Source: Deltaproteobacteria bacterium
GTDB lineage: Bacteria; Myxococcota_A; UBA9160; UBA4427
Reading direction: 5' to 3'
NCBI GenBank assembly: GCA_029261855.1
Contig: JAJDAN010000066.1
Span: 62,001-126,000, forward strand
DNA length: 64,000 nucleotides
Below the pieces are notes generated by a model. It searched no databases and was not told where the DNA came from. It was given only the letters and a program-made list of their open reading frames with translations. Made by a program: the position numbers and the translations under genes. Positions 4,081 through 48,159 of the stretch are shown here, in pieces (the first letter of the stretch is position 1; the number at the start of each line of letters is the position of its first letter).

Positions 4081-4407
4081 GTGCCCAAGGCGACGAAGTC
4101 CAAGACCCGAGCGCGCAAGAAGAAGCCAGCTCCCGCGCCGAGCCGGGACGGTCGTGCCCAGATCCATATCTACACGTCGCCTCGCCTGAAGAAGGCGATC
4201 ACCGCCAGCAGGTTCCGCGAGGAGTTTCAACCCCTCGGCGAGGAGTTGTCGGTGAGCAAGTACATTCAGGCGATCTGCGGCAAGTTGCTCGAGGCCGAGC
4301 GCGCCAACCCCACCTCCACATGGGACGAGATCTGGGCTCGTGTGATCGGTGATTCGCCGACCGAGCCGACTCGTCGCCCCGCGCAGAAGAAGAGAGTGAA
4401 GAAGTGA
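4081..4407 (+). CDS. Small basic protein with possible ribbon-helix-helix core, 108 aa
   Basis: A GTG with GGAGAG upstream gives VPKATKSKTRARKKKPAP, a lysine-rich tail. The core has a strand-like QIHIYTS followed by helices (LKKAITAS, SVSKYIQAICGKLLEAE), which resembles ribbon-helix-helix DNA-binding folds. The C-terminus is again basic (AQKKRVKK). As lead gene of the recombination block it may be an autoregulator or DNA-binding partner. The fold assignment is tentative. Confidence 0.6.
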   Translation: MPKATKSKTRARKKKPAPAPSRDGRAQIHIYTSPRLKKAITASRFREEFQPLGEELSVSKYIQAICGKLLEAERANPTSTWDEIWARVIGDSPTEPTRRPAQKKRVKK

Positions 4408-5849: not shown

Positions 5850-5882
5850 CCCCCTACCCCTCACGTGAACGGAGAAGACGAC

Positions 5883-6701
5883 ATGACCAACGGATATGGC
5901 TACCAGCATGGTGGCCAGCAGGCTGGCCCTGGCCAGCCTCAACAGCAGGGCGGTGGCCAGAACCACGCCAACTACGGCCAGGGCGGCTACGGCGGCCAGG
6001 GCGGCTACGGCGGCCAGCAGGCCGGCTACGGACAGCAGAGTGATCAGCCGGCCCCTACGGACGGTTGGGACTCGGCGCCGGCTCCCACGGCGCCGCCGGC
6101 ACCCAACCGCGTCGAGGTGAACAGGGAGTACTGGGATCAGATCACGTACTCCAAGGGGATCATGACGGATCAGTATCCGCTCATGGCCGGCACGTTCCAG
6201 GCGACCGTGCTCTACAGCGGCGTGAAGAACGACACCGATCGGGACGGCCAGATCAGGGGCGACGGCAAGTTGCTCAACCTGCTGCTGGGTGTCGAGACAC
6301 CCAATGGTCCCCGGAAGGTCTACGTTGACCTCTCCAAGACGCGCATGCCCGACAGGTGGAACGCCTTTCAGGCCGCGGCACTGCCGGAAATGGTCAACAG
6401 CCAGGTCCAGTTCCGCTCGATCCACGCCAAGGGTCGCGTCCTCATGGTCGAGATCGACTACGGCAAGGGCAAGTACGGCCAGACCGGCGAGGACCCACGT
6501 CTCGGAGTCACTAGGTTCCACGCGCTCGGCGCTCAGCCTCAGCAGCCCCAGCACCAGCCTCAGCAGGGCGGCTACCCCCAGCAGGGCGCGCACCAGCCTG
6601 GGGCCTACGTCCCGGGCCACGGGCAGACCTACGGCGCCCCCGACTCCAGCACGCCCACCATGCAGGCCATGGGCGTTCAACCGGGCCAGGTCCCCTTCTA
6701 A
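5883..6701 (+). CDS. Possible ssDNA-binding-like protein with FUS-like Gly/Tyr/Gln tails, 272 aa
   Basis: The start is the ATG after CGGAGAAG. Residues 1-55 are a Gly-Gln-Tyr tract with GGYGGQ units, very like the low-complexity region of eukaryotic FUS-type proteins. The core (about 75-220) has alternating strand-like segments (FQATVLYSG, LLNLLLGVET, KVYVDLSK, RVLMVEIDYG), compatible with an OB-type fold. The C-terminal 50 residues return to PQQGGYPQ repeats. Position between the possible annealing protein and the nuclease suggests a single-strand-binding role, but no family match can be confirmed. A hairpin terminator follows. Confidence 0.65.
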   Translation: MTNGYGYQHGGQQAGPGQPQQQGGGQNHANYGQGGYGGQGGYGGQQAGYGQQSDQPAPTDGWDSAPAPTAPPAPNRVEVNREYWDQITYSKGIMTDQYPLMAGTFQATVLYSGVKNDTDRDGQIRGDGKLLNLLLGVETPNGPRKVYVDLSKTRMPDRWNAFQAAALPEMVNSQVQFRSIHAKGRVLMVEIDYGKGKYGQTGEDPRLGVTRFHALGAQPQQPQHQPQQGGYPQQGAHQPGAYVPGHGQTYGAPDSSTPTMQAMGVQPGQVPF

Positions 6702-18066: not shown

Positions 18067-18261
18067 GTGGAATACGAAATCACGTGCCGGTGCACCTGGG
18101 ACTTGCCTGACGGCGCAGAGGTCGTTCCCTATATGAGCCCAGTTGCACCAGCGTTCAAGGACGCGGACGGCAAGTACCACCCAGGACTGCCAACGCTACC
18201 GTGCCCAGCGTGCGGCAAGGTGGACCCGTTCAAGATCTCAAGCGGGTGGCACCCAGGCTAG
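18067..18261 (+). CDS. Small zinc-ribbon protein, 64 aa
   Basis: Starts VEYEITCRCTWDLPDGAE from a GTG with AGGAGG eight bases upstream. CxC near residue 7 and CPAC near residue 46 make a likely zinc ribbon. Its stop codon overlaps the stop of the convergent gene on the other strand in the sequence CTAG. Confidence 0.6.
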   Translation: MEYEITCRCTWDLPDGAEVVPYMSPVAPAFKDADGKYHPGLPTLPCPACGKVDPFKISSGWHPG

Positions 18262-19232
18262 CCGTAGACCGTTATCTGGCGCGCGATTTCCAGGAGGGCG
18301 GGCTCGAGTTGGGCGGCCTTGATCACGCGGTTAGCGACCGTCATGCAGCCTCGACTGGGCTTGGCGCCCCCTTGATCCGCCCAGCCACCTCGCTTGCGGA
18401 ATACAGTCCAGCCATGAGGGGAGCGGTAGTCCTTGACGCCAAGCCCTTTGGAGGCGTCGCACGCGAACCCCACCGCGTAGGTGGCGTCGAAGATCGAGTC
18501 TGCCAGTCGGTCAGGTGCGTCAGACCTGTGGATCAGGTCTGCGCCGAGCAGTTCACGAACCGCCGTCAAGGCGTGCACTTGGGCCCACGCTTGGGGGGCT
18601 CGTGTGTGGCGTGGATCCTCCCCCAACCCAGTTTCATGCTGCACCTTGCGCAAGTAGGCCTCAATGGGCCTAGCCTTCGCCTGATAGGCCAAATACGCCG
18701 CACCGCCGCGGGCGTTGTCGTCGTGGTAAGCAGCCAGCAACCGCCGCAGTTCCAGGTTCGCCTGCAGCGGTTTCTCAAGGTGCTCCACCGTGTCGCGTTC
18801 GGTGAGTTGGAAGGACGCGCGCACCGCGGCCTCGGCCAGCATGCGCATGACGTCCATGCCGATTGCGTCTGCGATCTTGGGCCCGATCCGGTTGAACGGT
18901 CTGATCGTGGCCAGTTCGTGCATGGGTTGGATTTCGAGGACGTCTGCGTAGGCGACCGCGGGGGGCGGGGCCTGGGTGGCGACTGTGGCCTGCAACGTGG
19001 CGGCCTGGTCCCACCCGAGGTATCCCAGCAACCTGGCCCAGTAGGCGCGCTGGGAGTTGACGTGGCTGGCGTAGGGGAACCCGTCACCAGGGGCCCGCCA
19101 CCCTTGAGGCAAGAACCAGCGGCCCTGTCGCGCCACCTCGAACAGGAGGGCCTGGGCAGCGCCAACGTCGCCCTGCTCCACGGCGCGTTGCAGGCGTCGG
19201 AATCGAGTGTCTGCGTTGCGCCTAAGCCTCAC
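18258..19232 (-). CDS. LERR-module protein, 324 aa
   Basis: The N-terminus VRLRRNADTRFRRLQRA, then VEQGDVGAAQALL, is the recurring module seen in at least six other proteins here. The rest is helical; an RTRAP/GMD-like segment has Phe-Asn-Arg-Ile-Gly (RPFNRIGPKIADAIG) and a final part with conserved Trp, Lys and Cys (HGWTVFRKRGGW, SRGCMTVANRV). No enzyme family is recognised. It is transcribed alone leftward from a leaderless-type promoter (TAGGCT six bases before GTG), divergent from the next large protein. Confidence 0.65.
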   Translation of the reverse strand: MRLRRNADTRFRRLQRAVEQGDVGAAQALLFEVARQGRWFLPQGWRAPGDGFPYASHVNSQRAYWARLLGYLGWDQAATLQATVATQAPPPAVAYADVLEIQPMHELATIRPFNRIGPKIADAIGMDVMRMLAEAAVRASFQLTERDTVEHLEKPLQANLELRRLLAAYHDDNARGGAAYLAYQAKARPIEAYLRKVQHETGLGEDPRHTRAPQAWAQVHALTAVRELLGADLIHRSDAPDRLADSIFDATYAVGFACDASKGLGVKDYRSPHGWTVFRKRGGWADQGGAKPSRGCMTVANRVIKAAQLEPALLEIARQITVYG

Positions 19233-19238
19233 CCCCCG

Positions 19239-19292
19239 AGCCTACCAACACCCCCGATCCCCGGTAGCAGGGTTCGGTGATCGCGCTAGGAT
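19239..19292. promoter_or_regulatory. Divergent pair of leaderless-type promoters
   Basis: On the minus strand TAGGCT (19244-19239) is six bases before the GTG at 19232. On the plus strand TAGGAT (19287-19292) is six bases before the ATG at 19299, with GTAGCA (19264-19269) 17 bases upstream as a possible -35. Both transcripts would lack 5' leaders. Confidence 0.5.
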
Positions 19293-19298
19293 CGCAGC

Positions 19299-21203
19299 AT
19301 GGGACGTCGTCGCCGCTCGCCGTGCGCGAGCCACTCTCACCCGCAATTGAAGCGACCTGTCTCGCGCGAGCAGGTGAGGCAGGAACTCGAGCGGTTGCAT
19401 GTCCAGGCTGGCGGCAAGTTGCCGCTGCAGTTGGACTGGACCACGGCGCTGGCCAAGACGCACCAGCGGAACCACCGGCGCTACGCGCAGGTCTGGTCGT
19501 CTTCACACCCACCGCGCTACGAGCTGGCGCCTCAGACGGTCTACTTGCCAGCGCGGCACCGCCTGGCGCTGCTGGCTCATGAGGTGGGCCACGTGCTGAA
19601 GCCGCGTGGCAGCGAGGACGACGCCGATCGCGCTGCGCGTGAAGTGCTCGGGGTCAAGATCGGCTACGACCACCGGTTTCCGGGGAAGGGCCTACAGGTG
19701 GCGCGGAACCCTCCTTCATTTCATTTTGCCAACTGGCACCTCGGCGGCCATGGCGTGCAAGACGACTACGTTCTCTACGCGCTCAAGCCAGGAACCAGCG
19801 AGCCGTCGCGCGAGAACCTCCTGGGCATGATCACCTACTCTGTGATCCGTGTGCCTTGGGAAGAAGACGACCAGGTTCATATCAGCATGATTGCGGTCCC
19901 TGAACCGCTGCGTCGCCAGGGATTGGGCACGGCGTTGTGGCGCGAGCTTGAGAGGCTTTGGCCTGGATACAGCTTTCCGCGAGGCCTGGCTACTCCAGAA
20001 GGCGCCGCGTTGCGCAGGTCGGTGGGGCGGAACCCACCCAAGCACTTCGCCGTCCGCTCCCCCGCTCAGGGCCTGGCCACGATCCGCCACCCCGCGATCA
20101 CCAAGAACTGGAAGCGGGCGCTCAAGTGGCGCCCGCGTCACCGCAAGGCTGTCCTGGTCCCCTGCGCAGGCACCAAGCCCTTTCCCGACGCCCCCAGTCA
20201 CCGCAGTGGTTACCTCCCGGCCCTGGCCGGTAAGGACGTCGATCTCTGGGTGGTGAGCGAGCCCCTAGGGATCGTGCCTTACGCCTGGAGTCGAGACTAC
20301 CCGAACGCCCACTACGACTTCCCACCAGTCCACCTGCGCGGCGCAGCTCGCGCGGAGTTGGTGAAGCGCATGGCGGTTTGGTGGACCCAGGTGGCCCCGA
20401 AGTACGACACCGTCTTCCTGGCGCTGCCCGGCCACCACCACCGCCTGATCCATGAGGTCTTGGCCAGGGTCGGCCAGCCGCGGGTTCGGGTGGTCGACGC
20501 GGGGCACAGGGCATGCCTGGACAGCGGGCGGTGCCCGCCTGGGCATGGACGCTCGACTACTCACGGCTACCGGAAGTTCCTGAGGCAGCGGGTGAACCCG
20601 GTGCGCCGCAACCCAGACCCTAGGGTCCGAGGACTCGAGCGTCGCGCCCACGCCAGCGACCCTGAAGCCCAGCGGCGTCTACAGGCCGAGTTGGTGCGCG
20701 CACAGGGCCTGACGCCCACCACGCGGCAACTTGAAGACCCGCGCACCGCAGACCGCCGCCGTGCGATCCGAGACGCGGTCGAGACCAGCCTGCACGCCCA
20801 GTTCGACAACTGGCACGACATGGACCTTCAGATCACGGAAGACATGAGCGACGAGGAGGCGTTGGCCTTCGCTGCTCAGCAACTGGCCGACGTGTTGGGA
20901 GCCACGATTCGCGCACCGGGGGGAACCTTCGAGGAGTTCGCGGGAGACTACGGGTACGGTTTCTCATTAGAAGAGCTTGCCGACTGGCCCAACCCACCCA
21001 CCTTGGTCGAGGTTGCTCAGGTCCTGGAGTCGATCATGCCCCAGCAGCGGCGGTGGCGTTTGCTCGCGCAGGTGGGCGACTTCTATGACGAGGACAACGA
21101 GGTCTGGGAGGCGCTCGAGGGTGAGTTGGGGATTGGCCGGGGTTACTTCACGGACACGCACTTGATCTCGCCTGTCATGCCGAACCGCCGGGGGCGCCGG
21201 TGA
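19299..21203 (+). CDS. Modular protein: HExxH protease-like, GNAT, DUF5591-like and LERR module, 634 aa
   Basis: Four unlike segments are separated by Arg-Asn-Pro junctions at about 136, 244 and 437. Segment 1 has HEVGH (94-98) followed by EDDADRAA, a zinc metallopeptidase-type site. Segment 2 has a GNAT acetyltransferase core with acetyl-CoA loop RRQGLG (205-210). Segment 3 (284-400) resembles the DUF5591 domain of archaeosine synthase: VLVPCAGTKPFPDAPSHR and VVSEPLGIVPYAWSRDYP. Segment 4 begins RRNPDPRVRGLERRA and is acidic and helical. The combination is not known to me. It could be a polyprotein, a multifunctional virion-injected protein or a fusion by gene loss of stops. Confidence 0.7.
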   Translation: MGRRRRSPCASHSHPQLKRPVSREQVRQELERLHVQAGGKLPLQLDWTTALAKTHQRNHRRYAQVWSSSHPPRYELAPQTVYLPARHRLALLAHEVGHVLKPRGSEDDADRAAREVLGVKIGYDHRFPGKGLQVARNPPSFHFANWHLGGHGVQDDYVLYALKPGTSEPSRENLLGMITYSVIRVPWEEDDQVHISMIAVPEPLRRQGLGTALWRELERLWPGYSFPRGLATPEGAALRRSVGRNPPKHFAVRSPAQGLATIRHPAITKNWKRALKWRPRHRKAVLVPCAGTKPFPDAPSHRSGYLPALAGKDVDLWVVSEPLGIVPYAWSRDYPNAHYDFPPVHLRGAARAELVKRMAVWWTQVAPKYDTVFLALPGHHHRLIHEVLARVGQPRVRVVDAGHRACLDSGRCPPGHGRSTTHGYRKFLRQRVNPVRRNPDPRVRGLERRAHASDPEAQRRLQAELVRAQGLTPTTRQLEDPRTADRRRAIRDAVETSLHAQFDNWHDMDLQITEDMSDEEALAFAAQQLADVLGATIRAPGGTFEEFAGDYGYGFSLEELADWPNPPTLVEVAQVLESIMPQQRRWRLLAQVGDFYDEDNEVWEALEGELGIGRGYFTDTHLISPVMPNRRGRR

Positions 21204-24118
21204 GAGTCCGTCGAAACGCCGATACACGTTTGCGGGATCTCGAGCGGCGCTGGGAGCAGACGCGGTCTCCCGGGGACGCCGCGGCCTACCTCAACGCCGT
21301 GAAGCGCGCTGGAGATCAGGCCGCTGTGTTCCGTGCCGGTATGCACGTGGGAGTACTGCACCCCGCGAAGTTGTGGGTGCTGGCGCGTATGGGCGCCAAG
21401 GAGCGGGCAGCGATCGAAGCTGCCTTTGGGGAGTCCATACACCTTGTGCCGTGGCGCGGACTGAAGAAGTCCGTGAAGCACGGCGTGGATCCTACCGGCC
21501 CCCCCCAGGCGCTAGACCGCGGCGGGTTCACCAGGCTGCTTGTGCAAGATATTGCGCGGGAGTCGCGCGTTCGCCTGAGCGTTCCTCGTGAACGGATCAT
21601 TCAGCGCTGGCTCATGGTCGAAGCGCTGTTCAAGGCCTTGATCGCCGCCATGGAAGCCCAGGGCGTAGGGGCAGCCGAAGCGCAGGTGAGGCTGATCCAG
21701 GCTCAGAACCGATTGATCTGGATTGCTGGCATTGAGTTGGCCGACGGGAGCGTTCAGGAACCGGATAACTATCAGGTCGCGTCAGACTTTGTGGCTAGGG
21801 CTACGCTGTTTTTGGATCAACTCCCAGAGGCTGGCTGGGCCCTATTCGAGGCCGGCGCGTTTCCTGAAGTTCATGAACTTCCACGCCGGTGGCTGGAAGA
21901 GGCCCGTCCCGACGAGTGGGACGACGTAGACGAGGACGAACTTGAGGAGATTGTCAGAGATCGCGCCAGACCCGGGGAGTGGTGGTCTTGGCGGCCTGAG
22001 CAGGTGGATATCGTCTGGGGGGACGGGGCTTGCTACGGACGTGGCTACCCAGACGAGCAGACCACCTACCGAATTCTCAGCGAATACCTGACCCAGGCTC
22101 TCTTGGCCTACCTCCGCGACGAACCGCCGCCAGCGCCTCCCCAGCGCGCTACGGTCCCAGACGAGCGGCCAGGCCACCCTAGCCACCGGCACCGCAACCC
22201 CCGGCACAATCCGCTCGACCCTCGCCTCCGCGATCTAGAGCGGCGAGCTGCCGCAGGCGACCCCGAGGCCCTCGCGCGCCTCGCCAGCGTCCAGGCCCGC
22301 GCGGCGCCGATCGAGACTGCGTTGACCCGCTACGTGGCGTCACGGGCCCAGTTCGCGCCAGACAACGTGGCCTGGGTGTCGGCCTACCGCGACAGTTGGG
22401 GCGAGGTGCCGTTCAGCGAACTCGCCATGCACACCCAGGACGCCGGGCGGAAGGTGAAGCAGTACGCCTTGTTCCCGTTCTTCTATGGCGCACAAGTGCC
22501 ACCTCACGTGTCCGGCGCCGCCGTTCTGGTCGAGTACACCGAACCCCTGGGCAAACCGCCGCGTCAAGGCGTGCTCGCAGGGCTCGCCCGCGAGGTGCTT
22601 CCCCAGGAGGTCCAGCACGGGTTGCGGAACACCACCCCTGGTGTTGGATATGGCGCGTTGTGCATGCCAGTGACCGAGAACCCGCCTCGCGGCGACGAAC
22701 AACTCCGCAGGCTGGAAAGGAAGGTGTTGGCTGGTGATCTGGAGGCTCATGCGCCGTACCGCATAGCCCGACTCAGGGCGGGGCTTAGCCAATGGTACGA
22801 CCAATATGAGGTTGGTGGTCCTGGCGTTCCTTGCAGATTGCTTGACACAGAACACAACCTGGACTTCTACCACTGCCCAGGCTCCTTGGGCGGCAGCCTT
22901 ATCGCGCGGCGTGGTCATGGCGGCCCGCAGTACTGGTCCTCGCCTGTAGGCATGTTGCCAGCGCTGTCCACGTCCAGTTCTAAGACCGCACTCGCCGCAC
23001 TGCGGATCGCCAGACGTCACGGCCTGCTTCCACCTGACCAGGACCAGAACCCCCGCCCCACCGGTGACGCACGCCTGGTCCAGGCGCACCGCGAGTTCTT
23101 GCTCGCACCGTCACCGGACACGCTTCGCAGGTATCAGGAAGAGCGTCGGCGCGAGGGACTGCCCTGGTCCGTCATGAGCGGCCCGGCGGTTGCCAGGGCT
23201 GTGGTCGCTGCTTGGCCGAAGACCAAGCAAGGTAGGCCGAAGGTGCTGGTCTCCCGCGCCGAAGCATGGGAGGTCGAGAAGGCCTACTGGCGCGCGTTGG
23301 CAGAGCAGAACCAGGAAGAGGTGATCCTAGAAGCACCGCGCCTGCTGATCTGGAAAACCGGGCCCGTTCCCGCCAGCTACGAGGGCCGCGAGGCCACGTC
23401 TGTTGAGTGGCATGGCTCGACCCCCAACCGGGCGCTACATGGGCGACTCGACGACCCCAAAGACAACTGGCACTTCAGTCCCGGGCGGCAAAGGGTGACC
23501 GCGAGCGCTAATGAACTGTACCGGCTCGCTCGCCGAGCGCTCGATCCTCGCCAGCGCAACAACCCCCGGGTCCAACACAACGGCCCAGGCCGCACACCAC
23601 CGCCCTGCGACCCAGCCAACACCACCCACGGCCCAGTGGACACGCGCGGCCTGCGCGGCGAGCCAGTCCGCGTGCACGTCAACCTCCACAACGGGTGCTT
23701 CGTGGTCAGCCACCGCGGCCACGTCGCGGGATACGCCAAGACCCTCGCGCTCAAGAACGTGATTCCCAAGGTCAGCCTGGCCGGTTGGGAGCGCTGCAAC
23801 ACCAGCAAGGTGCGCAACGTCCACGCCTACCTCACTGGAGACCTGTCCGTGGGTGCCAAGAAGGGCCGTGGCTGGCGACAGATCACCTACAACTGCAAGA
23901 TCGCAGGCCCCAGCTTCCACCACGACGACGGTACGCCGTTCGAGGGGGCTGCTGAGGCAGTGTTCACTCGCCGCGGAGCCAAGGGTGAGGTCTGGGTGCG
24001 TGGCGCGCCGCCGCCGAAGCGCAACCCGGACTGTGGGTGTCGGCTTCCTGGCGGCGGGTGCAGGTGTGGCGCGGTTCAGGCGTGGTGGCGTGAGGTTCCG
24101 CCAGGGTGTGGCCAGTGA
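21200..24118 (+). CDS. Giant modular LERR-repeat protein, 972 aa
   Basis: The protein opens VRVRRNADTRLRDLERRW, and related segments recur near residues 335 (NPLDPRLRDLERRAAAGDPEA), 493 (NPPRGDEQLRRLERK) and 615 (NPRPTGDARL). Asn-Pro junctions also occur near 789 and 940. The segment near 825-885 (VRVHVNLHNGCFVVSHRGH, then VIPKVSLAGWERC and NVHAYLTGDL) resembles a small stand-alone phage protein family with the same order of motifs. The Cys-rich end (CGCRLPGGGCRCG) may bind zinc. The layout suggests several small genes joined in one frame. GTGA overlap links it to the previous gene. Confidence 0.65.
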   Translation: MRVRRNADTRLRDLERRWEQTRSPGDAAAYLNAVKRAGDQAAVFRAGMHVGVLHPAKLWVLARMGAKERAAIEAAFGESIHLVPWRGLKKSVKHGVDPTGPPQALDRGGFTRLLVQDIARESRVRLSVPRERIIQRWLMVEALFKALIAAMEAQGVGAAEAQVRLIQAQNRLIWIAGIELADGSVQEPDNYQVASDFVARATLFLDQLPEAGWALFEAGAFPEVHELPRRWLEEARPDEWDDVDEDELEEIVRDRARPGEWWSWRPEQVDIVWGDGACYGRGYPDEQTTYRILSEYLTQALLAYLRDEPPPAPPQRATVPDERPGHPSHRHRNPRHNPLDPRLRDLERRAAAGDPEALARLASVQARAAPIETALTRYVASRAQFAPDNVAWVSAYRDSWGEVPFSELAMHTQDAGRKVKQYALFPFFYGAQVPPHVSGAAVLVEYTEPLGKPPRQGVLAGLAREVLPQEVQHGLRNTTPGVGYGALCMPVTENPPRGDEQLRRLERKVLAGDLEAHAPYRIARLRAGLSQWYDQYEVGGPGVPCRLLDTEHNLDFYHCPGSLGGSLIARRGHGGPQYWSSPVGMLPALSTSSSKTALAALRIARRHGLLPPDQDQNPRPTGDARLVQAHREFLLAPSPDTLRRYQEERRREGLPWSVMSGPAVARAVVAAWPKTKQGRPKVLVSRAEAWEVEKAYWRALAEQNQEEVILEAPRLLIWKTGPVPASYEGREATSVEWHGSTPNRALHGRLDDPKDNWHFSPGRQRVTASANELYRLARRALDPRQRNNPRVQHNGPGRTPPPCDPANTTHGPVDTRGLRGEPVRVHVNLHNGCFVVSHRGHVAGYAKTLALKNVIPKVSLAGWERCNTSKVRNVHAYLTGDLSVGAKKGRGWRQITYNCKIAGPSFHHDDGTPFEGAAEAVFTRRGAKGEVWVRGAPPPKRNPDCGCRLPGGGCRCGAVQAWWREVPPGCGQ

Positions 24119-26118
24119 GGCGCCGCGTCGCGAAGAACATGGACGCGAAACTGCGGGAACTCGAGCGCCGCGCCCAGGGCGACCCGTCGGCGATCGCGCA
24201 GTTCGTGCGGGCCGTGATTCGCACTGGCGACTTTGAGTCCGCAGCGCCCGCCCTGACCAAGTTGATCTCACCGCTTTCCCTGGGGTCACCTAGGGACGAC
24301 ATGGTGCTGGTCCTGGGCCGTGAGTTGGTGCGACGTGGGTGGGCGCCTGATCTCCCGTTGGGCTACGAGGCCTATCGAGAGTTTGGGCTGGAGGCCATTC
24401 GTCCAGAAACGCAGGTCGGAGATCGGCACGGTCAAAGGGTCCTAGTGCGCACTGGTCCCGAGGTCAGGCTCAAGGGTCAGTTCAGTGCAGCGACCGCCAA
24501 GCGACAGGTGAGGAGTTGGCGCTTCGTGGCACGGTGTGGGTTCTCTACCTCTACCTTCAACCAAATCCCAACCAGAGAACCCGCGAATCAGCCGCCATAT
24601 TTTTTCTTTGAGATCAGTCCCATAGGAAGGCGCCACCAGGCCGACGCGCTTGCGCGCAAGGTTCTAGAAGGCCCGTTGAACTCGAAGACGCTGCGTAAGA
24701 TCGCGCCTGACACGTGGTTCTTGTTGCGGTGGAAAGACTCTGTAGCGACCACGTCGCCTGGCGCTCGGGGCGGGGCCGGGACCTGGGCTGGGCTGCCTTG
24801 GCACTACATAGAGAACTCGGTCTTCTTTGCCTCACCAGCAGAACAAGCTCGAGGAATGTGGCCCGCGTTCCTCAAGAATGCCCGTGCGGGCTACCTGCCT
24901 AGTGAGTCTGTTCCTGACCAGAGCGTGACGCAAGACCAGATCCGCGCCTGGCTCCAGAACCCCCAGCGGATCGCTGACCTCGGCGCGCTGTTCTACGGCG
25001 ACCTTTACCTCGGCGGTCTCTTGCTTCCACCCGAGCAGCTCCATTACGACCCTGCGACTCTCATGGCCCCGCAGGTCCAGACCAACCCCCGCGCCAGCAT
25101 GGCCGAGGGCCCAGCCGACGACTTCGAGGCCTGGGTCAGCTTCGCACCACACCGCAAGGTCCAGGTGCGCGCGACCAGCCCCCAGCAGGCGCGTCTTCAC
25201 GCCGCCGAGATCCTCCACGTGAGACCGTTCGACATAGTGGCGCGCTACATAACCGATCGCAGCAACGTGCAGCACCCGTGGGTGGACCCGCCGTGGTGGA
25301 GGCCGAACCCAGGCCGGGCGCGCAGGAACCCAGACGAGCGCTTGCAAGGGTTGCGGCGACGTTTGGAGGCCGGGGATCCTGAGGCCTTCACTCCCTACGT
25401 CAACGCCGCCGCGCGGACTGGAGACCACCAGGCTGTCTACTGGGCCATGGGCTTCGCGCCGAACCGAGACCTGTTGCGGTGGGCTAGCAACAGGTACTGG
25501 CATGCGCGCTGGGCAGACAAGCCGCCGCAACTGAACCCAGGCGGTGACCCCCGTCTTCGCGATCTCGAACGGCGAGCCGCCGCCGGCGACCCCGAGGCCC
25601 AGGCGCGCCTCGCGCACCACCGGGCCCGTGCAGGTGATCCGTTCGACCTACAGCTCGTGCAGGCCCGCGAGGAGATCGCGTTCGCCAACGGACCTGACGG
25701 GTACCACCGCGTCTTGTTGCCCGACGTCACGCGCTGGCGTGAACTATTCAAGGCCGAGGGCAAGCGCGATTCGTTGATCGAGGAGCAGCGGCGCGGGCAC
25801 CACCCATGGGCGGCTCAGTGGACCTTCGACGACTACGAAGAAGGGGAGTGCACGGTGCCCATTGGGCCCGCGTGCCAGATCAATGGCCAGGACGTGTCCT
25901 ACCGGTGGCTCAACGTGAAGCCCACACAACCCGTGGCTCAGGCGATCATGGACACCATGATCCCGCAGTGCTACCACAGCGTCGGGTTCGAGGTCGTGAT
26001 CCGTACTGCTGAAGACAAGCAACCCACCGCCCTGGTGATCGCTCGGTGGAGCAGCGCCATAGGCGCGCGGTGGCTGGCGATTATTCCCGCAGTCGAAGTC
26101 CCCGGAGTCGGCCTGTGA
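24115..26118 (+). CDS. Modular LERR-repeat protein, 667 aa
   Basis: The GTG start overlaps the upstream TGA and gives VRRRVAKNMDAKLRELERRA. Further LERR-type modules start near 403 (RRNPDERLQGLRRRLEAGD) and 473 (NPGGDPRLRDLERRAAAGD). Between them, residues about 330-385 form a compact domain (FEAWVSFAPHRKVQVRATS, then PQQARLHAAEIL) that looks like a small independent fold. The rest is helical. No catalytic motif is recognised. Confidence 0.65.
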   Translation: MRRRVAKNMDAKLRELERRAQGDPSAIAQFVRAVIRTGDFESAAPALTKLISPLSLGSPRDDMVLVLGRELVRRGWAPDLPLGYEAYREFGLEAIRPETQVGDRHGQRVLVRTGPEVRLKGQFSAATAKRQVRSWRFVARCGFSTSTFNQIPTREPANQPPYFFFEISPIGRRHQADALARKVLEGPLNSKTLRKIAPDTWFLLRWKDSVATTSPGARGGAGTWAGLPWHYIENSVFFASPAEQARGMWPAFLKNARAGYLPSESVPDQSVTQDQIRAWLQNPQRIADLGALFYGDLYLGGLLLPPEQLHYDPATLMAPQVQTNPRASMAEGPADDFEAWVSFAPHRKVQVRATSPQQARLHAAEILHVRPFDIVARYITDRSNVQHPWVDPPWWRPNPGRARRNPDERLQGLRRRLEAGDPEAFTPYVNAAARTGDHQAVYWAMGFAPNRDLLRWASNRYWHARWADKPPQLNPGGDPRLRDLERRAAAGDPEAQARLAHHRARAGDPFDLQLVQAREEIAFANGPDGYHRVLLPDVTRWRELFKAEGKRDSLIEEQRRGHHPWAAQWTFDDYEEGECTVPIGPACQINGQDVSYRWLNVKPTQPVAQAIMDTMIPQCYHSVGFEVVIRTAEDKQPTALVIARWSSAIGARWLAIIPAVEVPGVGL

Positions 26119-27248
26119 AGACGAGGAAGAACGCCGACAAGGGACTACGCGACCTCGAAGCCCGAACACTCCAGGGCGATCTCGACGCGGCTTGGCAGCT
26201 CTACATGGCCCGCCGCCGCGTCCACGGGTTCCGCGAGCATGACGTGAGTCCGTTCGCGCCGGCGGCCAGCAGTGGTCGGCGTGTGGTGGTCGAGACCAAG
26301 CACGGGAAGTTGGTGATCCAGACCGTGAGTGAGACCGCGCTCTACGTAACCGCGGATCACACCAACGTCGCTCACGGCTTGATTGACGGCCCTTGGGTCG
26401 TCAATCGGGTCCCCGTGTTCTGGACGTTGCACTACTTCTTCAACCCGGCTGGATACGACGCGGGTTGGGTCCCCTTCAACAACGATTGGGGCCGCGGCGA
26501 CTACTTCCACAATAAGAACTTCGACGCGCAACGAGAAGACCACGTGGCGCGGTTGAGGCGCCTTGAGTCTCCGGCGCACTCAACGCTTCATTCCTATCGC
26601 GCGGACGATTACCGGGCGACAGTCTCCAGTTCAGCCGACAGGAAGATCCTCCAGTGGGTCACGCCGGTTGTTCAGGCATGGGCAGCCAGCAACCAGGGCG
26701 CGGTGGGATCCGGGGCGTTGATCGACGTCAACAACCAGATTCGGGACGCTGAGGACCAGCTCCAGACCCTCCAGGCGCACGTCACCGAGGCCCAGCGCAG
26801 GATCGCGGCCTTGATCGTGGACGAGACCAGGCTCGACCGCGGCCCCAAGGCCAACCCTCCCACCCTCCGCCCCTGCGGGTCCACCCCGGACGAGGTGGAC
26901 CTCCACACCGTGGACCGCCCTGGCCTGCGTGCTTGCTTGGCTCTCGACGTCCACAACGTCCGGCTCTACACGCCGTCCCAGTGGGCTGCGGGTCGCTGCC
27001 CGTTGCTGGCCGGGTTCCAGCTTGAGCACGTCCAGGGGCCCATGCTGCAGATCGCACGCCGGGGTGTCTCACTCGAGCCGGTCACCTGGGCACAGAGTCA
27101 TGACCTCCGCGAAATGGCTCAACGACTTGGCATGCCGCTCGAGTTGTGTGAGGACGCCTTGATCCAAGAGGGGTTGGCCTGGCATGCAGCCCAGGCGAAG
27201 CCGCGCCCGAACAGTAGACCCACTCGCAGGGGACGAAAATCTCGGTAG
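26115..27248 (+). CDS. LERR-module protein, 377 aa
   Basis: Starts VKTRKNADKGLRDLEARTL, then QGDLDAAWQL, the same N-terminal module as its neighbours. A beta-rich middle (VVVETKHGKLVIQTVSETAL) and a coiled-coil-like stretch (NQIRDAEDQLQTLQAHVTEA) follow. After an Asn-Pro junction near 246 there is a Cys-containing segment and a C-terminal basic tail (RRGRKSR). Last member of the coupled 19.3-27.2 kb operon. Confidence 0.65.
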   Translation: MKTRKNADKGLRDLEARTLQGDLDAAWQLYMARRRVHGFREHDVSPFAPAASSGRRVVVETKHGKLVIQTVSETALYVTADHTNVAHGLIDGPWVVNRVPVFWTLHYFFNPAGYDAGWVPFNNDWGRGDYFHNKNFDAQREDHVARLRRLESPAHSTLHSYRADDYRATVSSSADRKILQWVTPVVQAWAASNQGAVGSGALIDVNNQIRDAEDQLQTLQAHVTEAQRRIAALIVDETRLDRGPKANPPTLRPCGSTPDEVDLHTVDRPGLRACLALDVHNVRLYTPSQWAAGRCPLLAGFQLEHVQGPMLQIARRGVSLEPVTWAQSHDLREMAQRLGMPLELCEDALIQEGLAWHAAQAKPRPNSRPTRRGRKSR

Positions 27249-27693: not shown

Positions 27694-29802
27694 GTGAGCC
27701 GCCAGGAGCAATTGGCCCAGGTCCAGGCGGCTCGCAAGGCAGCCAGTCTCTGGCTGGACCTCGAGGAGATCGAGCGGCTTGTGTGCTTTCGCGAGGCAGA
27801 TCTGTGCCTCGGAAGCACTGTCTTCTTCAGCCTCGATCACTGGAGATCCGCTCTTGGCAAGACCTCCCCCTCAGAGGAGAGCCTTCAAAGAGCGTTCGAG
27901 CGCTGGAAGGTTGAGGTTCGTGACCTCCCGTTCGAGTTCTCTGCCCCAGAGGCCGAAGGGCTGCCGTCTGGTTTCTACGGCATTCCACGCGGCGCGCCCA
28001 GCCAGCATGTCGACGCCAGCGCGGACCACGCGGCTCGCTTGGTGCAGGCTTACGCCCAAATGCACGGCAAGGTCCCAGGCCGGCGGGCCGGGAGGAAGCC
28101 GCAGGACAGCGAGCCAGCCCAGTCCTTTGGCCCGCGCGACCTCAGCGGAAACAAGTTGTCCAAGGCGTTTGGCGTAGCGTGCACCACGATCACGAAATGG
28201 GTCCGGCAAGGTCTGCCGCATGACGTGGCCGGCGGGAAGCAGAAGCCCCAGCGGAAGTTCAACCTCGAAGAGTCTGAGGCGTGGGTCCTGGGCGCGGTTC
28301 GCGCTGGTCTAATCAGAGACCCTCGTAGGCCCATGATCTCCAAGGAGGAGGCTGCCGACCGCGTTCGGAGTGTGATCGACGATCTCAACTTGTCGATTGG
28401 CAAGGCCGCGGAAATGGCCAGTGTCCCCGACGGCACGCTGGCGGTGCTGTATCACGGGAAGACCAAGGGCAATCGGGTCTCCCTCGAATTGGTGCAATCC
28501 ATTGAGGCGCTGCGCGACGTGTTGCCGCGCCCGCTTACAGCAGCCGAGAAACAACGCAAGCACCGCAGTCTTCCCCCGATAGAGGTCATGCGTCGCGCCT
28601 TGAAGAAGGCGGGCGGCCAGGCTGCCCAGGCAGCGCGCGAACTCGGCATGGACCCTTCTACGCTGACCCAAGCTGCCACGCGGTTGGGGATCCCATACCA
28701 GAAGAAGCCAGCGCCGATCAGTTCGATCGTGTCTCGCCAGGACTTGGTAGACGCCATGGAAGGATCGGGTCACCGAATCGCCGGTGCCTCACGAACGCTC
28801 GGCGTCAGCACGAGCACGGTCAATCGGTTGATCAAGCACTATGGCCTCACCGACGAGTTCGAGATTCGGCACTCAGGCACTCCGCGGGGTGGCAAGTTCT
28901 CTCGCGCGGAGATTGTGGAGGCCATGGACGCTTTCGGGCCGCGAATCCAAGACGTTGCCCAAGGCCTCGGCGTTGGCGCGGGCATGATCTCGCACCTCTA
29001 TTCTGAGTATGGGCTTGGGCCTGTGGCTCGTGCGCAGCGGGCTGAGACCGAGCGCGCTGCCGCTGCTACGCGCCTTGAGAGCGCGCTGAAGAAAGGCATT
29101 CGGAACAAGTGGACCGTGGGCCGCGTAGCGCAGGAACTGGGCGTCTCTCCGACCCACGCCCATAGAATGATCAAGGATCTTGGAATGCAGGGACTGAGGC
29201 GTAGGTTGAAGAAATCCAGGTCAGCCAAGAACCCGGAGGGCGACCCCACCCCCCACCTCCCCGCTCGTCGCCCTGAGCGGCTTCTCCCCGCGCCCGTGTC
29301 CTCCCCGGCGCCTTACTCCATGGCCAGGCCCCCGATCGGATCCTCCCTCTCCGACTACACCTCGGGCAACGCCCCTCTGATCTTCGTGCCCGAGGGGGCA
29401 CGTGAGTGGCCTGAGGTCACTCAGGCTATGGCTGACCTCGGCGGCTACAGCGGGCCTATGCCCAACGCCCTCTCCCCCCAGGCCTGGGAGACCTTGCTGT
29501 CTGTGACGGGGTCTGGCGAGACCTCGGCGATCGCAAACGTCTACCTCGTGGACGAGTTCGGGCGCCAGTTGCTGGTCATGAAAATGTTGCCGGATCCAGG
29601 CCACTTCACAGGACGTTTGAAGGTTGTCCCCATGGACGAGCGCGCTCGCACGACCCCCTACATGCTGATCGACTTGCGGCAGTTGCCTGGGAACGCGATT
29701 CCAGTCGTGGTCTACAAGAGCCACTGGCGTCACGGGCCGCCCCCTGGTGTGACTCCGCAGATCCAAGGGAACCCATGCCGTCGACTGGGCTGCCGGCGGT
29801 AG
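27694..29802 (+). CDS. Protein with tandem helix-turn-helix array, 702 aa
   Basis: Several HTH units are visible in a row: LSKAFGVACTTITKWVRQGL, AARELGMDPSTLTQAATRLG, ASRTLGVSTSTVNRLIKHYG, VAQGLGVGAGMISHLYSEYG and VAQELGVSPTHAHRMIKDLG. The last four follow the Fis/NtrC-type pattern (A-x-x-LG-S-x-x-T-h). A basic stretch (RRRLKKSRSAKNP) then leads to a distinct C-terminal beta-rich domain (about 540-702). Such a bead-string could bind DNA at multiple sites as architectural protein or recognise a repeated site. GTG start, SD GAGAGG. Confidence 0.75.
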   Translation: MSRQEQLAQVQAARKAASLWLDLEEIERLVCFREADLCLGSTVFFSLDHWRSALGKTSPSEESLQRAFERWKVEVRDLPFEFSAPEAEGLPSGFYGIPRGAPSQHVDASADHAARLVQAYAQMHGKVPGRRAGRKPQDSEPAQSFGPRDLSGNKLSKAFGVACTTITKWVRQGLPHDVAGGKQKPQRKFNLEESEAWVLGAVRAGLIRDPRRPMISKEEAADRVRSVIDDLNLSIGKAAEMASVPDGTLAVLYHGKTKGNRVSLELVQSIEALRDVLPRPLTAAEKQRKHRSLPPIEVMRRALKKAGGQAAQAARELGMDPSTLTQAATRLGIPYQKKPAPISSIVSRQDLVDAMEGSGHRIAGASRTLGVSTSTVNRLIKHYGLTDEFEIRHSGTPRGGKFSRAEIVEAMDAFGPRIQDVAQGLGVGAGMISHLYSEYGLGPVARAQRAETERAAAATRLESALKKGIRNKWTVGRVAQELGVSPTHAHRMIKDLGMQGLRRRLKKSRSAKNPEGDPTPHLPARRPERLLPAPVSSPAPYSMARPPIGSSLSDYTSGNAPLIFVPEGAREWPEVTQAMADLGGYSGPMPNALSPQAWETLLSVTGSGETSAIANVYLVDEFGRQLLVMKMLPDPGHFTGRLKVVPMDERARTTPYMLIDLRQLPGNAIPVVVYKSHWRHGPPPGVTPQIQGNPCRRLGCRR

Positions 29803-40095: not shown

Positions 40096-40707
40096 ATGGA
40101 TCAGCGCATGCGCGACCTCGAGCGACGAGCCGAGCAGGGAGACACGGACGCAGCCGAGGAGTTGTACTGGAAGGGCCTGCGCAGCGGTCTGTCCATGAAG
40201 TTGCTGGACAAGTTGGTTGAAGCCGTGTTGACGCTGGACAACGGTGTATCCCCCACGGTGTGGCAGAAACTCTCCTTCACGCGAGACCAGCCCCTAGAGG
40301 TGCTGCCGCCCGCAGAGGCCGCAGCCGAGCGTGAGCGGTGGCGCCTAGTGCAGTCGGCCAGCCAGTTGCACCAGATCCCTCGCAGCGTGCGGGCGCCTGG
40401 GTTCACGACCTACGTGGTCAGCGACTGGTCTGTCTACCAGGTCCAGGCCGACGGGAATTGGCTGCGCCTTGTCACGCTGAGCGCACCTCCACCGTGCCAC
40501 CCGTTCCATATCGTCCAGCAACTTTCGGATCGGGACGCGCTGCAGATCACAAGCCGGGCCTCCTGCTTTGTCTTGCAGAACGGCGGGGTCTACATTGGGG
40601 AAAGGCCGTCGCACGGATCGGTGAACCAGACGGACCCGAACGTCCGGGTGCGGTGGGTGGACGTTCGGTTCGAGAAGCGGCGCGCCGCCAGGCCGCAGGA
40701 GGTCTAA
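40096..40707 (+). CDS. LERR-module protein, 203 aa
   Basis: Starts MDQRMRDLERRAEQGDTDAA, the shared helical module, from an apparently leaderless ATG. A helical middle and a beta-rich end follow (TYVVSDWSVYQVQADGNWLR). The family is not recognised beyond the module. Confidence 0.65.
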   Translation: MDQRMRDLERRAEQGDTDAAEELYWKGLRSGLSMKLLDKLVEAVLTLDNGVSPTVWQKLSFTRDQPLEVLPPAEAAAERERWRLVQSASQLHQIPRSVRAPGFTTYVVSDWSVYQVQADGNWLRLVTLSAPPPCHPFHIVQQLSDRDALQITSRASCFVLQNGGVYIGERPSHGSVNQTDPNVRVRWVDVRFEKRRAARPQEV

Positions 40708-44927: not shown

Positions 44928-45275
44928 GTGCACAACACGGACTACAACACAAACTACCTAAACTCAACCACAGCGACGACCGGAGCCGTGTTCACGTTCA
45001 CGGTCAGGGTGCGCAGGAGTGCCCTGACCAGGTCCCAGGCTGAACGCGCACGTTCAACCTGGGATTCTGCGATCAACCGCACTGCGCCGGCCCCCGCCGA
45101 GGACGACGAGTTGTCCGAGGAGGAACTGTGGGCCGCGCGCCGTCGCAGGCAGTTGGCCGGCGAGTCCTACCGGCGGCCACCCAGACGCCTTGGCCGTGGC
45201 CAAGCCCCTGCGGGGAAGTGGAGCCCGGAGCCTGGTGCTCGCCTGCGGCGAGAGAAGCGGCGGGGACGGCGGTAG
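44928..45275 (+). CDS. Basic hypothetical protein overlapping an antisense gene, 115 aa
   Basis: The GTG start lacks a Shine-Dalgarno, but codons are third-position GC-rich throughout. Acidic helix (AEDDELSEEELWAARRRRQL) and an Arg/Pro/Gly C-terminus. The last 109 bases are antisense to the end of the leftward gene. One of the two ends may be mis-called. Confidence 0.45.
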   Translation: MHNTDYNTNYLNSTTATTGAVFTFTVRVRRSALTRSQAERARSTWDSAINRTAPAPAEDDELSEEELWAARRRRQLAGESYRRPPRRLGRGQAPAGKWSPEPGARLRREKRRGRR

Positions 45276-46891
45276 GGCGGGTTGGCCTGGGGGTCTCCCA
45301 CTACGTCCAGGCCTCCGTGATCGTCTAGTCGCCAGACGTTGCCCCACCAACCGGCCTGCTGTTGGTGGGCGCGGATCGCGTCCCAGGCAGCCTCGTCGGT
45401 GTTGAACGTCCCGAGGTGGGGGCCCTCGACCACGTCCACTGCAGTGCGCGACCCCAGCGGTGGGGCGTCCGAGATCACTATGTCGTCCGGGGCAGGTTGG
45501 TCTGCCTCGTCTTCGCCCTGTTCGTCCTCCCATTCGTTCACGAAGTAGTCAGCGTCTCCCCAGTCACGGTCGAACCGCTCTAGTTCCGTTGGCCGGTAGT
45601 AGCGGATCTCTCTGTTGTCGTCGGAGTCGAACTCGACTATGGCCCTGGCGTGGTCGCGGATCCAACGGAAGGCGTTTACGGCGTCGTCGTCTTCTCCGTC
45701 GCCGTCACCTTCCTCGGCGAAGTATCTGCGCGCTGCCTCTGGGCCCAGGGCGATCGAACCGAACCAGCGTCCGCCTGGCACATTGGAATCACCGACCGCT
45801 GCTAGGGTGCCACCGGTTTTGCCGCTCAGATCGCCCACCCAGTCGTCAGACAGTTCTCCTGGCTCGTTGCCGTATTGGCCAGGGTAGGCGTGGTCGTAGG
45901 CCGCGAGTGCCCGAAGCCACGAGTTTCGGTCCCGAGGACCGCGGTAGTGGTGGGCCCAGGCGAGGTCGGCCTCGACTTCCCGCGCGTCCTGCTCGCGACC
46001 CACGCGGTGTAGGAGGGTGGCGTATTCAGCCCCCGCGTTCCAGTCGTCCGCGTCGAACCAGGCGCGCTCGAGTTGGCGGAGGCGCGCGTCGCCGCGTGGA
46101 GGGTTGAACCGCAGGCGCCCAGTCACGTCGCGCGTTGTGTTCACAATGGGGCCCTGTGACCCGTCGGTGGCGATCAGGTCGCCGCCGTCCGTTTCCCAGA
46201 AGACCCATGACCCCCTGGGCCCGCCTCCCCCATAGCGGTAACCGACCCCGAACATGGGACCGAAGTCGCGTGACTCAACTAGACGCTGGCGCGCCCTGCG
46301 GAGTTGCGCACGGGCCTCAGGGTCACCAGTGGCAGCCCTGCGTTCCAGATCACGGATATTGGAGTCTGGGTTCACCCGTGGAAGCGTGTTCTCCTTTCCC
46401 CGCGCGAAGGCCACGCCGATCGCGTCAGGGCGTCCCAGCACACGCCGCGCACCCTCGAACGTGGCGCCGGACACCACCACGTTGTCCACCATGACGATTG
46501 GGACGTCCGCTGGCGGCATGGGATATGGAGTGCGGCCCATGGTCATGGCGTGGGTCTCTGGCGCCAGTCCGCGCCCCCCAGAGCGACGCAGTTCTCGGCT
46601 CGAGCGCACTCCCCGCCGTCGCTGCACGAGCACCATGCGGCGCCCCCCAGTCAGATCAGCCAGGGCGTCGGCCAGGAGCAGCGACCCTTTGAACCCAGCA
46701 GGCTCTGAGCTGGGCATCGGGACTAGGACGGCGCCCTCGGGAATCAGGTTCTTCATGGCCCAGGCTGCGGCTTGGATCGCCCCGTAGTTGCCGTCCTTGA
46801 TCAGGATCGCGGTCATGCGAACCCACCCCTCGTAGGGGGTCAGTTCTCGCTCGCGCGGGCTGACGTAGACCTCAGCGGCGTAGTTGGTCAC
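45167..46891 (-). CDS. Phosphoribosyltransferase-like domain with LERR modules, 574 aa
   Basis: Residues 1-165 resemble a type I PRTase/ComF domain: LVPMPSSEPAGFKGSLLLAD and the PRPP loop VMVDNVVVSGATFEGARRVL. An Asn-Pro junction near 172 leads to NPDSNIRDLERRAATGD, another near 261 to NPPRGDARLRQLERAW, and a third near 534 to an Arg-rich tail. The middle-late part is acidic (EDEQGEDEADQPAPDD). Start set at GTG overlapping the upstream TGA. The PRTase may act on nucleobases or be a binding module; not shown. Confidence 0.7.
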   Translation of the reverse strand: MTNYAAEVYVSPRERELTPYEGWVRMTAILIKDGNYGAIQAAAWAMKNLIPEGAVLVPMPSSEPAGFKGSLLLADALADLTGGRRMVLVQRRRGVRSSRELRRSGGRGLAPETHAMTMGRTPYPMPPADVPIVMVDNVVVSGATFEGARRVLGRPDAIGVAFARGKENTLPRVNPDSNIRDLERRAATGDPEARAQLRRARQRLVESRDFGPMFGVGYRYGGGGPRGSWVFWETDGGDLIATDGSQGPIVNTTRDVTGRLRFNPPRGDARLRQLERAWFDADDWNAGAEYATLLHRVGREQDAREVEADLAWAHHYRGPRDRNSWLRALAAYDHAYPGQYGNEPGELSDDWVGDLSGKTGGTLAAVGDSNVPGGRWFGSIALGPEAARRYFAEEGDGDGEDDDAVNAFRWIRDHARAIVEFDSDDNREIRYYRPTELERFDRDWGDADYFVNEWEDEQGEDEADQPAPDDIVISDAPPLGSRTAVDVVEGPHLGTFNTDEAAWDAIRAHQQQAGWWGNVWRLDDHGGLDVVGDPQANPPYRRPRRFSRRRRAPGSGLHFPAGAWPRPRRLGGRR

Positions 46892-48159
46892 CGGGGAGGC
46901 CACGCAGACGTGAACTGGCCCAGAACCGACACCACCGCGGCGAGGTTCTCTAGGGTCGGTGTGAAGGCGAGTTTGGAGTTGTGGAACCGGGCCATGTTCA
47001 AGGCGTCGTAGGCCCCCAGCAGCTTCTTGTCCGCGTAGTCGCCGGATTGGGAGCCGACCAGGCCGTTCAGCATGGTCTCGGCCTGGTTGATCAACGCGCC
47101 AGCCTGAGCATGGCGCCCGTACTGAACGGCGTCACCGGCCTCGATCGCTTTGCGCGACACTTGGTTTGCCAGGAACACCTGGTAGTCGCTCTTGGCTGGG
47201 TTCTTCTTCCTCCGCTTTCGCCGCTTCTTTGGCTTCTCGCTTGGGTGGACGCGGTACTCTTTCTTGATCTCGCCTTCCTCTTGCTGCCCTACAACCGTCG
47301 GACTACGCCACATGCTCCCCACGAACCCGCTGACGTGAGGCTTCTCGGGCTTGTAGACGGCGAACCCGCCGCGCCGCAGGTGCATGCGGAGGGCACGCTG
47401 ACTCCCCTGGCCCGCCTCTTTGGCCTGGGCCAGAGACTGACGAGCTGGGAGGCCTACGTCGAGGACCTTGAACTTGATCTTGGGCCCTGCGTCCCCGCGG
47501 CGCTCTCGCTTCTGGCGCACCTTCTTTGAGACACCAGGCTGGTCGCGTAGCGTAGTGCCCTTGGCGTGCATGAAGTAGACGGTCAGCATGGCCACGCGCA
47601 CGGCCTGCAAGAACGACCTGGACAGCTCTTGCAACTGCTCTTGCGGCACGGTGTAGGTGAGGCCCTTGGCCACGCCTGCTGGGAAGGAAATGAAGGCGTT
47701 TCGATCCAAGCGCCCGCCTGGTTCTACGCCGTAGAAGAAGGTCCAGGCGAGTGCGGAGTCACCTTGGCTGTCCAGGGTGAACACGTCGGCCTGCATGATC
47801 CACCTAGAGTCCGGGAAGGTCTCCTGCAGCCTGCCTGGCATGACGGACCGCGGCTGTGCCGTGAGCAAGACGCCGGCGCGTTGCCAGACGTCTGGGTTCC
47901 ACGGCATGACCCCGTGTTCCTCAGATCGAATGAACTGAGGCGCACCGAACTCGATCCACAGTAGGTCGTGCGGCGGGGCGACGTTCTGGAACTCGTCGCG
48001 CTCGTTCCAGTACTCCTTCTCCGACTCCTCGAAGAACCAGCGCATGGGCTCGTCGGCCAGGACATGCACCGCGTGACGCAATCCGTCCTTGTGGCCAGAC
48101 TCAAGCCCCAAGCCTTCCTCGATCAGCGTCTCAACGAGTTTCTGACGCCGCCGGGCCAC
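46888..48159 (-). CDS. Hypothetical modular protein, 423 aa
   Basis: N-terminal 230 residues look globular (DLLWIEFGAPQFIRSEE; WIMQADVFTLDSQGDSALAW). A very basic stretch (KKRRKRRKKNPAKSDYQVF, near 312-330) contains the same Lys/Arg-Asn-Pro junction and separates a helical C-terminal domain that resembles a TPR-type bundle. No family recognised. It is coupled to the PRTase-like gene. Confidence 0.6.
   Translation of the reverse strand: MARRRQKLVETLIEEGLGLESGHKDGLRHAVHVLADEPMRWFFEESEKEYWNERDEFQNVAPPHDLLWIEFGAPQFIRSEEHGVMPWNPDVWQRAGVLLTAQPRSVMPGRLQETFPDSRWIMQADVFTLDSQGDSALAWTFFYGVEPGGRLDRNAFISFPAGVAKGLTYTVPQEQLQELSRSFLQAVRVAMLTVYFMHAKGTTLRDQPGVSKKVRQKRERRGDAGPKIKFKVLDVGLPARQSLAQAKEAGQGSQRALRMHLRRGGFAVYKPEKPHVSGFVGSMWRSPTVVGQQEEGEIKKEYRVHPSEKPKKRRKRRKKNPAKSDYQVFLANQVSRKAIEAGDAVQYGRHAQAGALINQAETMLNGLVGSQSGDYADKKLLGAYDALNMARFHNSKLAFTPTLENLAAVVSVLGQFTSAWPPR

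Follow-up and report, generated by a model that had tools for sequence, protein, structure and literature searches.

What is the short motif, centred on Leu-Glu-Arg-Arg (LERR), that recurs at the start of or inside many proteins encoded at this locus, and what could it be doing there? The window, by which we mean the whole stretch of 64,000 nucleotides analysed here, comprises bases 62001–126000 of contig C66 (190,544 bp), part of a metagenome-assembled genome (MAG) of 6.96 Mb in 91 contigs. The ends of C66 overlap by 71 bp, and the contig is therefore probably circular. Genes were called with a simple script.

A recurrent module of about 33 residues

A profile built from nine seed copies was iterated over six-frame translations, with its own matches included in the profile. 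It retrieves 12 copies of the LERR module from the window and 18 from the whole of C66, with the caveat that profiles of short amphipathic helices can draw in unrelated helices, and amphipathic hairpins of another kind may be among the weak members; reversed decoy proteins gave no match at E 0.05. The recurrence put forward in the original prediction is thus real, and its count of about 11 came close. N-terminal copies lie where they had been placed, in the genes at 18258 (minus strand), 21200, 24106 (given earlier as 24115), 26115 and 40096, as do the internal ones in the genes at 19299 (one), 21200 (two), 24106 (two) and 45167 (minus strand, two). The module spans about 33 residues with the consensus (R-R-N-[A/P])-D-x-x-L-R-x-L-E-R-R-x-x-x-G-D-P-E-A-x-x-x-L-x-x-x-x-x-R-x-G, in which GD-x-x-A follows LERR after 3–4 residues and not after about 8, as first read.

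Table 1. Positions of LERR modules and associated units in the window.
Feature	Position	Strand	Evidence and remarks
LERR module, N-terminal copy of gene 18258–19232	19125..19217	-	RRNADTRFRRLQRAVEQGDVGAAQALLFEVARQ; profile E 7e-10; the G98 homologue b062 also carries the module
Polyvalent-type protein: HEXXH metallopeptidase-like unit, GNAT, DUF5591/archaeosine-synthase-like unit, LERR unit	19299..21203	+	Pfam DUF5591 E 8.7e-12, Acetyltransf_1 E 1.5e-5; NCBIfam ArcS E 2.7e-11
HEVGH zincin-type motif, LALLAHEVGHVLKP	19578..19592	+	same motif in G98 b238, 53% identity over 117 aa
LERR module, internal, after RRNP (19299 protein)	20610..20702	+	profile E 3e-10
Polyvalent-type protein: three LERR units and C-terminal Mycobacterium phage L5 gp82-like unit	21200..24118	+	Pfam PF25735 E 9.6e-15; modules by profile
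LERR module, N-terminal (21200 protein), MRVRRNADTRLRDLERR	21215..21310	+	profile E 5e-8
LERR module, internal, after RHNP (21200 protein); heads unit 22217–22624	22208..22303	+	profile E 1e-10
LERR module, internal, after ENPPRGD (21200 protein)	22679..22780	+	profile E 5e-9
L5 gp82-like unit (21200 protein)	23657..23977	+	PF25735; 46% over 104 aa to separate G98 gene b236
Multi-unit protein, three LERR modules	24106..26118	+	profile
LERR module, N-terminal (24106 protein)	24136..24225	+	profile E 8e-11
LERR module, internal, after RRNP (24106 protein)	25327..25419	+	profile E 3e-10
LERR module, internal, after LNPGGD (24106 protein); heads unit 25543–26103	25534..25632	+	profile E 9e-13
Gene with N-terminal LERR module (26130–26219), RKNADKGLRDLEARTLQGDLDAA	26115..27248	+	profile E 4e-8
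203-aa protein, LERR module from residue 1 (40096–40182)	40096..40707	+	profile E 1e-10; G98 orthologue b218 keeps the module
Phosphoribosyltransferase-like unit (46382–46753), then two LERR units	45167..46903	-	PADLOC ShosT E 2.3e-6
LERR module, internal, after FNPPRGD (45167 protein)	46004..46105	-	profile E 4e-8
LERR module, internal, after VNPD (45167 protein)	46283..46372	-	profile E 9e-11

Across the whole MAG, a single-sequence search gives confident matches on C66 only (next best E 0.09), and all 16 matches of a profile search fall on C66. We rejected a gene family of the host MAG's chromosome as the source, given the lack of copies off C66 and a search of 97 relatives that was negative save for one weak match (6e-4). 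Nucleotide identity between copies is 0.56, 0.55 and 0.35 at codon positions 1, 2 and 3; conservation is therefore at the protein level, and recent DNA duplication as the origin of the copies is ruled out by the value at the third position. In the orthologues a117 and b218 (the latter from the related element G98, below), identity is 61% within the module against 36% elsewhere (Fisher p = 0.02).

The module is predicted to fold into a helical hairpin (AlphaFold2, 15-row alignment), with helices at residues 9–19 and 23–35 and a pLDDT of about 90. When the 203-aa protein at 40096 is folded from its single sequence, the hairpin region is the one part to gain any confidence (pLDDT 63–80). A Foldseek search with a 52-residue model retrieved no PDB chain. 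No family in Pfam, NCBIfam or PHROGs matches the module, nor does any PDB sequence significantly; these scans exclude a curated domain, and the module is undescribed and unnamed in those collections, in keeping with the original prediction, which knew of no described system with such a tag. The same prediction likened it to half of a TPR or Sel1 repeat. The predicted hairpin, with its A-x-x-G-D-x-x-A turn, is shared with those repeats, but a significant match is lacking (best TPR_14, E 0.4; no match to Sel1), and LERR hairpins are single where TPR and Sel1 repeats come in arrays. NCBIfam scans of the LERR proteins gave no match to the repeat-companion N-terminal domain TIGR02996.

Related virus-like elements

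A degenerate DNA pattern run against IMG/VR picked up a sister element, G98 (contig 3300017971_000001, 245,276 bp), and a second scan yielded G258 (3300019458_000005, 81,790 bp) and G259 (3300038829_000263); G98 and G258 each have ends that overlap by 123 bp. For about 100 proteins of C66, G98 encodes a relative; a run of putative structural genes is among them in co-linear order, and G258 shares part of this run. Judged by their sequences, C66, G98 and G258 appear to form a group of large circular virus-like elements. The terminase family PF03237 matches another contig of the MAG and none of C66, and we found no close relative of these elements in a collection of 50,697 phage records. Scans of viral contigs with whole LERR proteins or with a strict Asn-Pro (NP) pattern retrieved nothing useful, nor did tblastn searches of named phages with the 24106 protein or with the conserved protein of the structural cluster. 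The LERR profile gives 36 matches in G98 at a permissive E of 0.1 (about 30 at E 0.01 with the final profile), 10 in G258 and 7 in G259.

Internal copies as the N-termini of fused units

The sister element encodes separately several of the units that C66 encodes together. The second unit of the 21200 protein (22217–22624) corresponds to a free-standing 161-aa protein of G98, b030 (35% over 142 aa, E 1.9e-8), and the third unit of the 24106 protein (25543–26103) aligns end to end with free-standing b184, starting at residue 4 of the latter (BLAST E 4e-7 over the C-terminal 100 aa). The L5 gp82-like C-terminus of the 21200 protein is likewise a gene of its own in G98, b236; the metallopeptidase-like N-terminus of the 19299 protein is b238, which adjoins b237, the carrier of the ArcS-like unit. 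Asn-Pro stands just ahead of 18 of the 19 internal copies but of only 4 of 35 N-terminal copies in five elements (Fisher p = 1.3e-9). By the b030 and b184 alignments and this junction rule, the internal copies are no separate use of the tag inside proteins but the former N-termini of whole fused units. Overlapping genes in place of fusions were considered and set aside, since the internal copies at 22208, 25327 and 25534 lack an in-frame start codon within 14 residues. In C66, genes with the module are longer than the rest (median 377 vs 150 aa). An unnamed but easily recognised module thus marks unit boundaries in large, unannotated phage-type proteins, which become divisible into testable units.

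Attached domains and likeness to polyvalent proteins

The domains attached to the module are unrelated to one another, as had been claimed, and the module is mostly N-terminal: its partners include HEXXH, GNAT, ArcS-like, phosphoribosyltransferase (PRTase) and L5 gp82-like units. Two or more disparate activities share one polypeptide in the 19299 protein (HEXXH, GNAT and ArcS-like DUF5591 with LERR) and in the 45167 protein (PRTase-like with LERR units). From their sequences, these multi-unit proteins look like the polyvalent proteins of phages and conjugative elements, whose disparate domains are joined in some elements and encoded singly in others (Iyer et al., 2017; PMC5512222). The HEXXH peptidase, GNAT, PRTase and nucleic-acid-related enzymes of polyvalent proteins on large mobile elements have counterparts here. 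For the zincin-like metallopeptidase, present in many polyvalent proteins, the counterpart is a HEVGH/HEIGH motif kept in a094 and b238, without a Pfam peptidase match. The encoding contig also fits a phage, plasmid or conjugative element: it closes on itself and shares about 100 proteins, a co-linear putative structural cluster among them, with G98. Unlike polyvalent proteins, the C66 proteins have no curated LPD domain: among signature domains of that kind, no LPD model in Pfam reached E 1, and the only link is a distant tblastn match of the GNAT part (35% over 99 aa) to a plasmid protein of 2.8 kaa annotated with LPD23. A repeated LERR header and Asn-Pro junctions also set the element proteins apart from polyvalent proteins as the consulted parts of that paper describe them.

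The same authors predict that polyvalent proteins are injected with the DNA and processed by zincin-like peptidases (PMC5512222). By analogy, the C66 proteins might be polyproteins cut next to Asn-Pro, possibly by the HEXXH metallopeptidase of the gene cluster, which would restore LERR-headed units. The junction rule is in line with such cutting, as are the 1.8-fold excess of NP over expectation in C66 and G98 (PN about 1.0), its greater density in LERR genes and a HEXXH unit kept beside the fused genes in both elements. Few proteases, however, cut bonds adjacent to proline; NP is also found away from junctions; a proline-containing hinge between folded units would give the same pattern; and, since the sister elements encode several units separately, cutting is not needed for function. 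We consider processing at these sites improbable.

Copies on Planctomycetota chromosomes

A degenerate pattern run over GTDB genomes gave 27 loci. The four best (profile E < 1e-10) are all in Planctomycetota MAGs, where a fifth locus is weaker (E 1e-6); most of the other loci look like chance or Sel1-type matches. At least 26–39 copies apiece occur in three Planctomycetota MAGs, over many contigs and near housekeeping genes, and one chromosomal stretch of 400 kb holds five, which extrapolates to an estimated 100 or so per genome. Any match at all was found in 10 of 149 sampled Planctomycetota genomes. Because dozens of copies adjoin housekeeping genes on some Planctomycetota chromosomes, the module is not exclusive to phages. 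The host MAG itself has a 16S rRNA sequence 77.6% identical to that of a Planctomycetota MAG and lacks Planctomycetota marker families.

The chromosomal copies are N-terminal; behind them there is often another hairpin, LRAGxLSxERLxLAAYLGHxGA, together with an Imm5-like domain (PF14423, E 1.4e-6 in one Planctomycetota LERR protein). A profile made from the chromosomal proteins alone retrieves element proteins, down to E 3e-22; since it was the element profile that first brought up the chromosomal set, the independence of the two sets extends to their sequences and not to how they were discovered. By sequence, the LERR module is a homologue of the hairpin that opens a family of Planctomycetota proteins, and it links that family to large virus-like elements. 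Full-length relatives of the family exist in the elements themselves (a219, b287, a254 and b327), and these resemble the chromosomal proteins in which LERR and a second hairpin precede Imm5. The closest named family is that of Imm5 and Imm5-like immunity proteins (PF14423, PF21805). Most element LERR proteins, though, carry different domains and do not match Imm5, whose Pfam model does not take in the hairpin, and Pfam finds no Imm5 in the window proteins.

This continuity into a second hairpin and Imm5, together with the full-length relatives in the elements, would be expected if the hairpin had no tag function and were a first repeat, now eroded, from a family of helical, Imm5-like domains, inherited or shuffled with gene 5′ ends and serving at most as a folding cap. 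Its retention ahead of unrelated domains under protein-level selection, and its better conservation than the attached part in orthologues, speak against such a relic, to which we give little credence.

A proposed docking role for the hairpin

Because a small N-terminal hairpin is kept ahead of many different activities, docking is the role most simply inferred, and in our analysis it is the most economical one. We put at about one in two the probability that LERR is a docking hairpin placed at the N-terminus of each unit in the polyvalent-type proteins of large circular virus-like elements. The hairpin would act as an adaptor, recruiting a wide range of effector domains to a single shared partner or to one another, and fusion would join units otherwise recruited separately; the pair a176 (C66) and d109 (G258) might supply that partner. 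Against docking, a hairpin of 33 residues could be a stabilising N-cap without any partner, and delivery of LERR proteins with the DNA is assumed from the analogy with polyvalent proteins. Moreover, the nearest neighbour of a copy lies in its own element in 33 of 48 cases (25 expected, p = 0.02), a slight excess that gives weak grounds for homotypic pairing.

Small domains have been proposed as docking pieces before, namely the effector-associated domains of bacterial conflict systems (2021, PMC8195603). Like those, the LERR module is small, helical, non-catalytic and usually terminal, occurs in many copies per genome and is joined to very different effectors. It differs in being a two-helix hairpin only, with no core NTPase or ternary system seen. 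No effector-associated or Death-like family is among the Pfam matches of the module consensus or of the proteins, and, except for the ShosT-like PRTase unit, PADLOC finds no defence family in LERR proteins.

Another proposal, which we regard as unlikely, is that the LERR hairpins are virion cargo tags, loading effectors into the particle by docking on a LERR-bearing, capsid-associated protein (a176, d109). These two proteins, each the other's nearest match, start with a LERR module and have a stretch like a zinc finger as well as a domain related by homology to the best-conserved protein of the structural cluster, which is 89% identical between C66 and G98. The LERR genes d060–d063 of G258 also lie on the same strand inside a run of putative structural genes, as in a late operon; one of them, d060, joins a LERR unit with a homologue of a025, which belongs to the structural cluster of C66. 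Yet nearly all conserved structural-cluster proteins of C66 and G98 lack the module, the housekeeping surroundings of the dozens of Planctomycetota copies do not suit a virion tag, and it is only from position and conservation that the conserved protein is taken to be structural, with no match in PHROGs or the PDB. Known cargo signals offer a partial parallel: the T4 capsid-targeting sequence and those of phiKZ/SPN3US-type ejection proteins are short peptides removed by the prohead protease. The LERR module resembles them as a short N-terminal segment common to unrelated proteins, which in those phages are packaged ones; unlike them, it is a predicted folded hairpin and is found in bacterial chromosomes too.

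The most elaborate version, and more doubtful still than any reading above, would be a cargo-docking code, in which a capsid-associated LERR protein of the a176/d109 type recruits dozens of LERR-headed effectors or polyproteins into the particle by hairpin–hairpin pairing, Asn-Pro cutting frees the units, and the code is exchanged with Planctomycetota hosts. If docking or packaging proved true, LERR would amount to a cargo tag both small and portable.

Other recurrent features of the contig

A second N-terminal tag, M-x-(x)-FFDLPDVFG with a Lys/Ala-rich stretch resembling histone H1 behind it, recurs on at least six different C66 proteins (contig positions -2 to 909, 918–2591, 53463, 112770 (window 50770), 187106 and 188867), among them HEXXH/SprT-like, PAPS-reductase-like, kinase-like and methyltransferase-like proteins. 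The G98 orthologue of the kinase-like protein is without the tag, and a related FDLPDLG motif ends the protein at 4319–6091.

Small proteins encoded at 33.5–40.4 kb of C66 (L002) and 213–220 kb of G98 begin with an M-x-x-L-x-M-x-x-L-x-x-LG-like motif; at the C-terminus they carry a transmembrane helix whose last residues are a few Lys/Arg. The run is conserved between the elements and suggests a membrane-associated structure. A 210-aa structural-cluster protein (L002:4454–5086, that is C66 24454–25086; L050:8133–8771; L158:15109–15801) is 89% identical between C66 and G98, where most shared proteins are 25–60% identical. It is a possible major capsid protein; PHROGs and the PDB give no match. 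Partial or diverged paralogues on C66 are a111, a112, a176 and a213.

In the window, a 702-aa protein (27694–29802) has several helix-turn-helix segments, and its C-terminal domain is fused ahead of the DUF5591 unit in G98 (b237), making it another shuffled unit. The gene at C66 40398–42224 (L003:398–2224) has a Hint/intein-like insertion with LAGLIDADG similarity, and its G98 homologue, of 258 aa, is without the insert. A Cas12f/TnpB-like protein of 747 aa (C66 155636–157879, L006:10636–12879; PF07282, E 1e-10) has a relative in G98. Window 55727–57544 (minus strand) and C66 11409–15113 encode proteins with collagen-like (GPTGPTGP) and Gly-rich repeats, of a kind usual in appendages.
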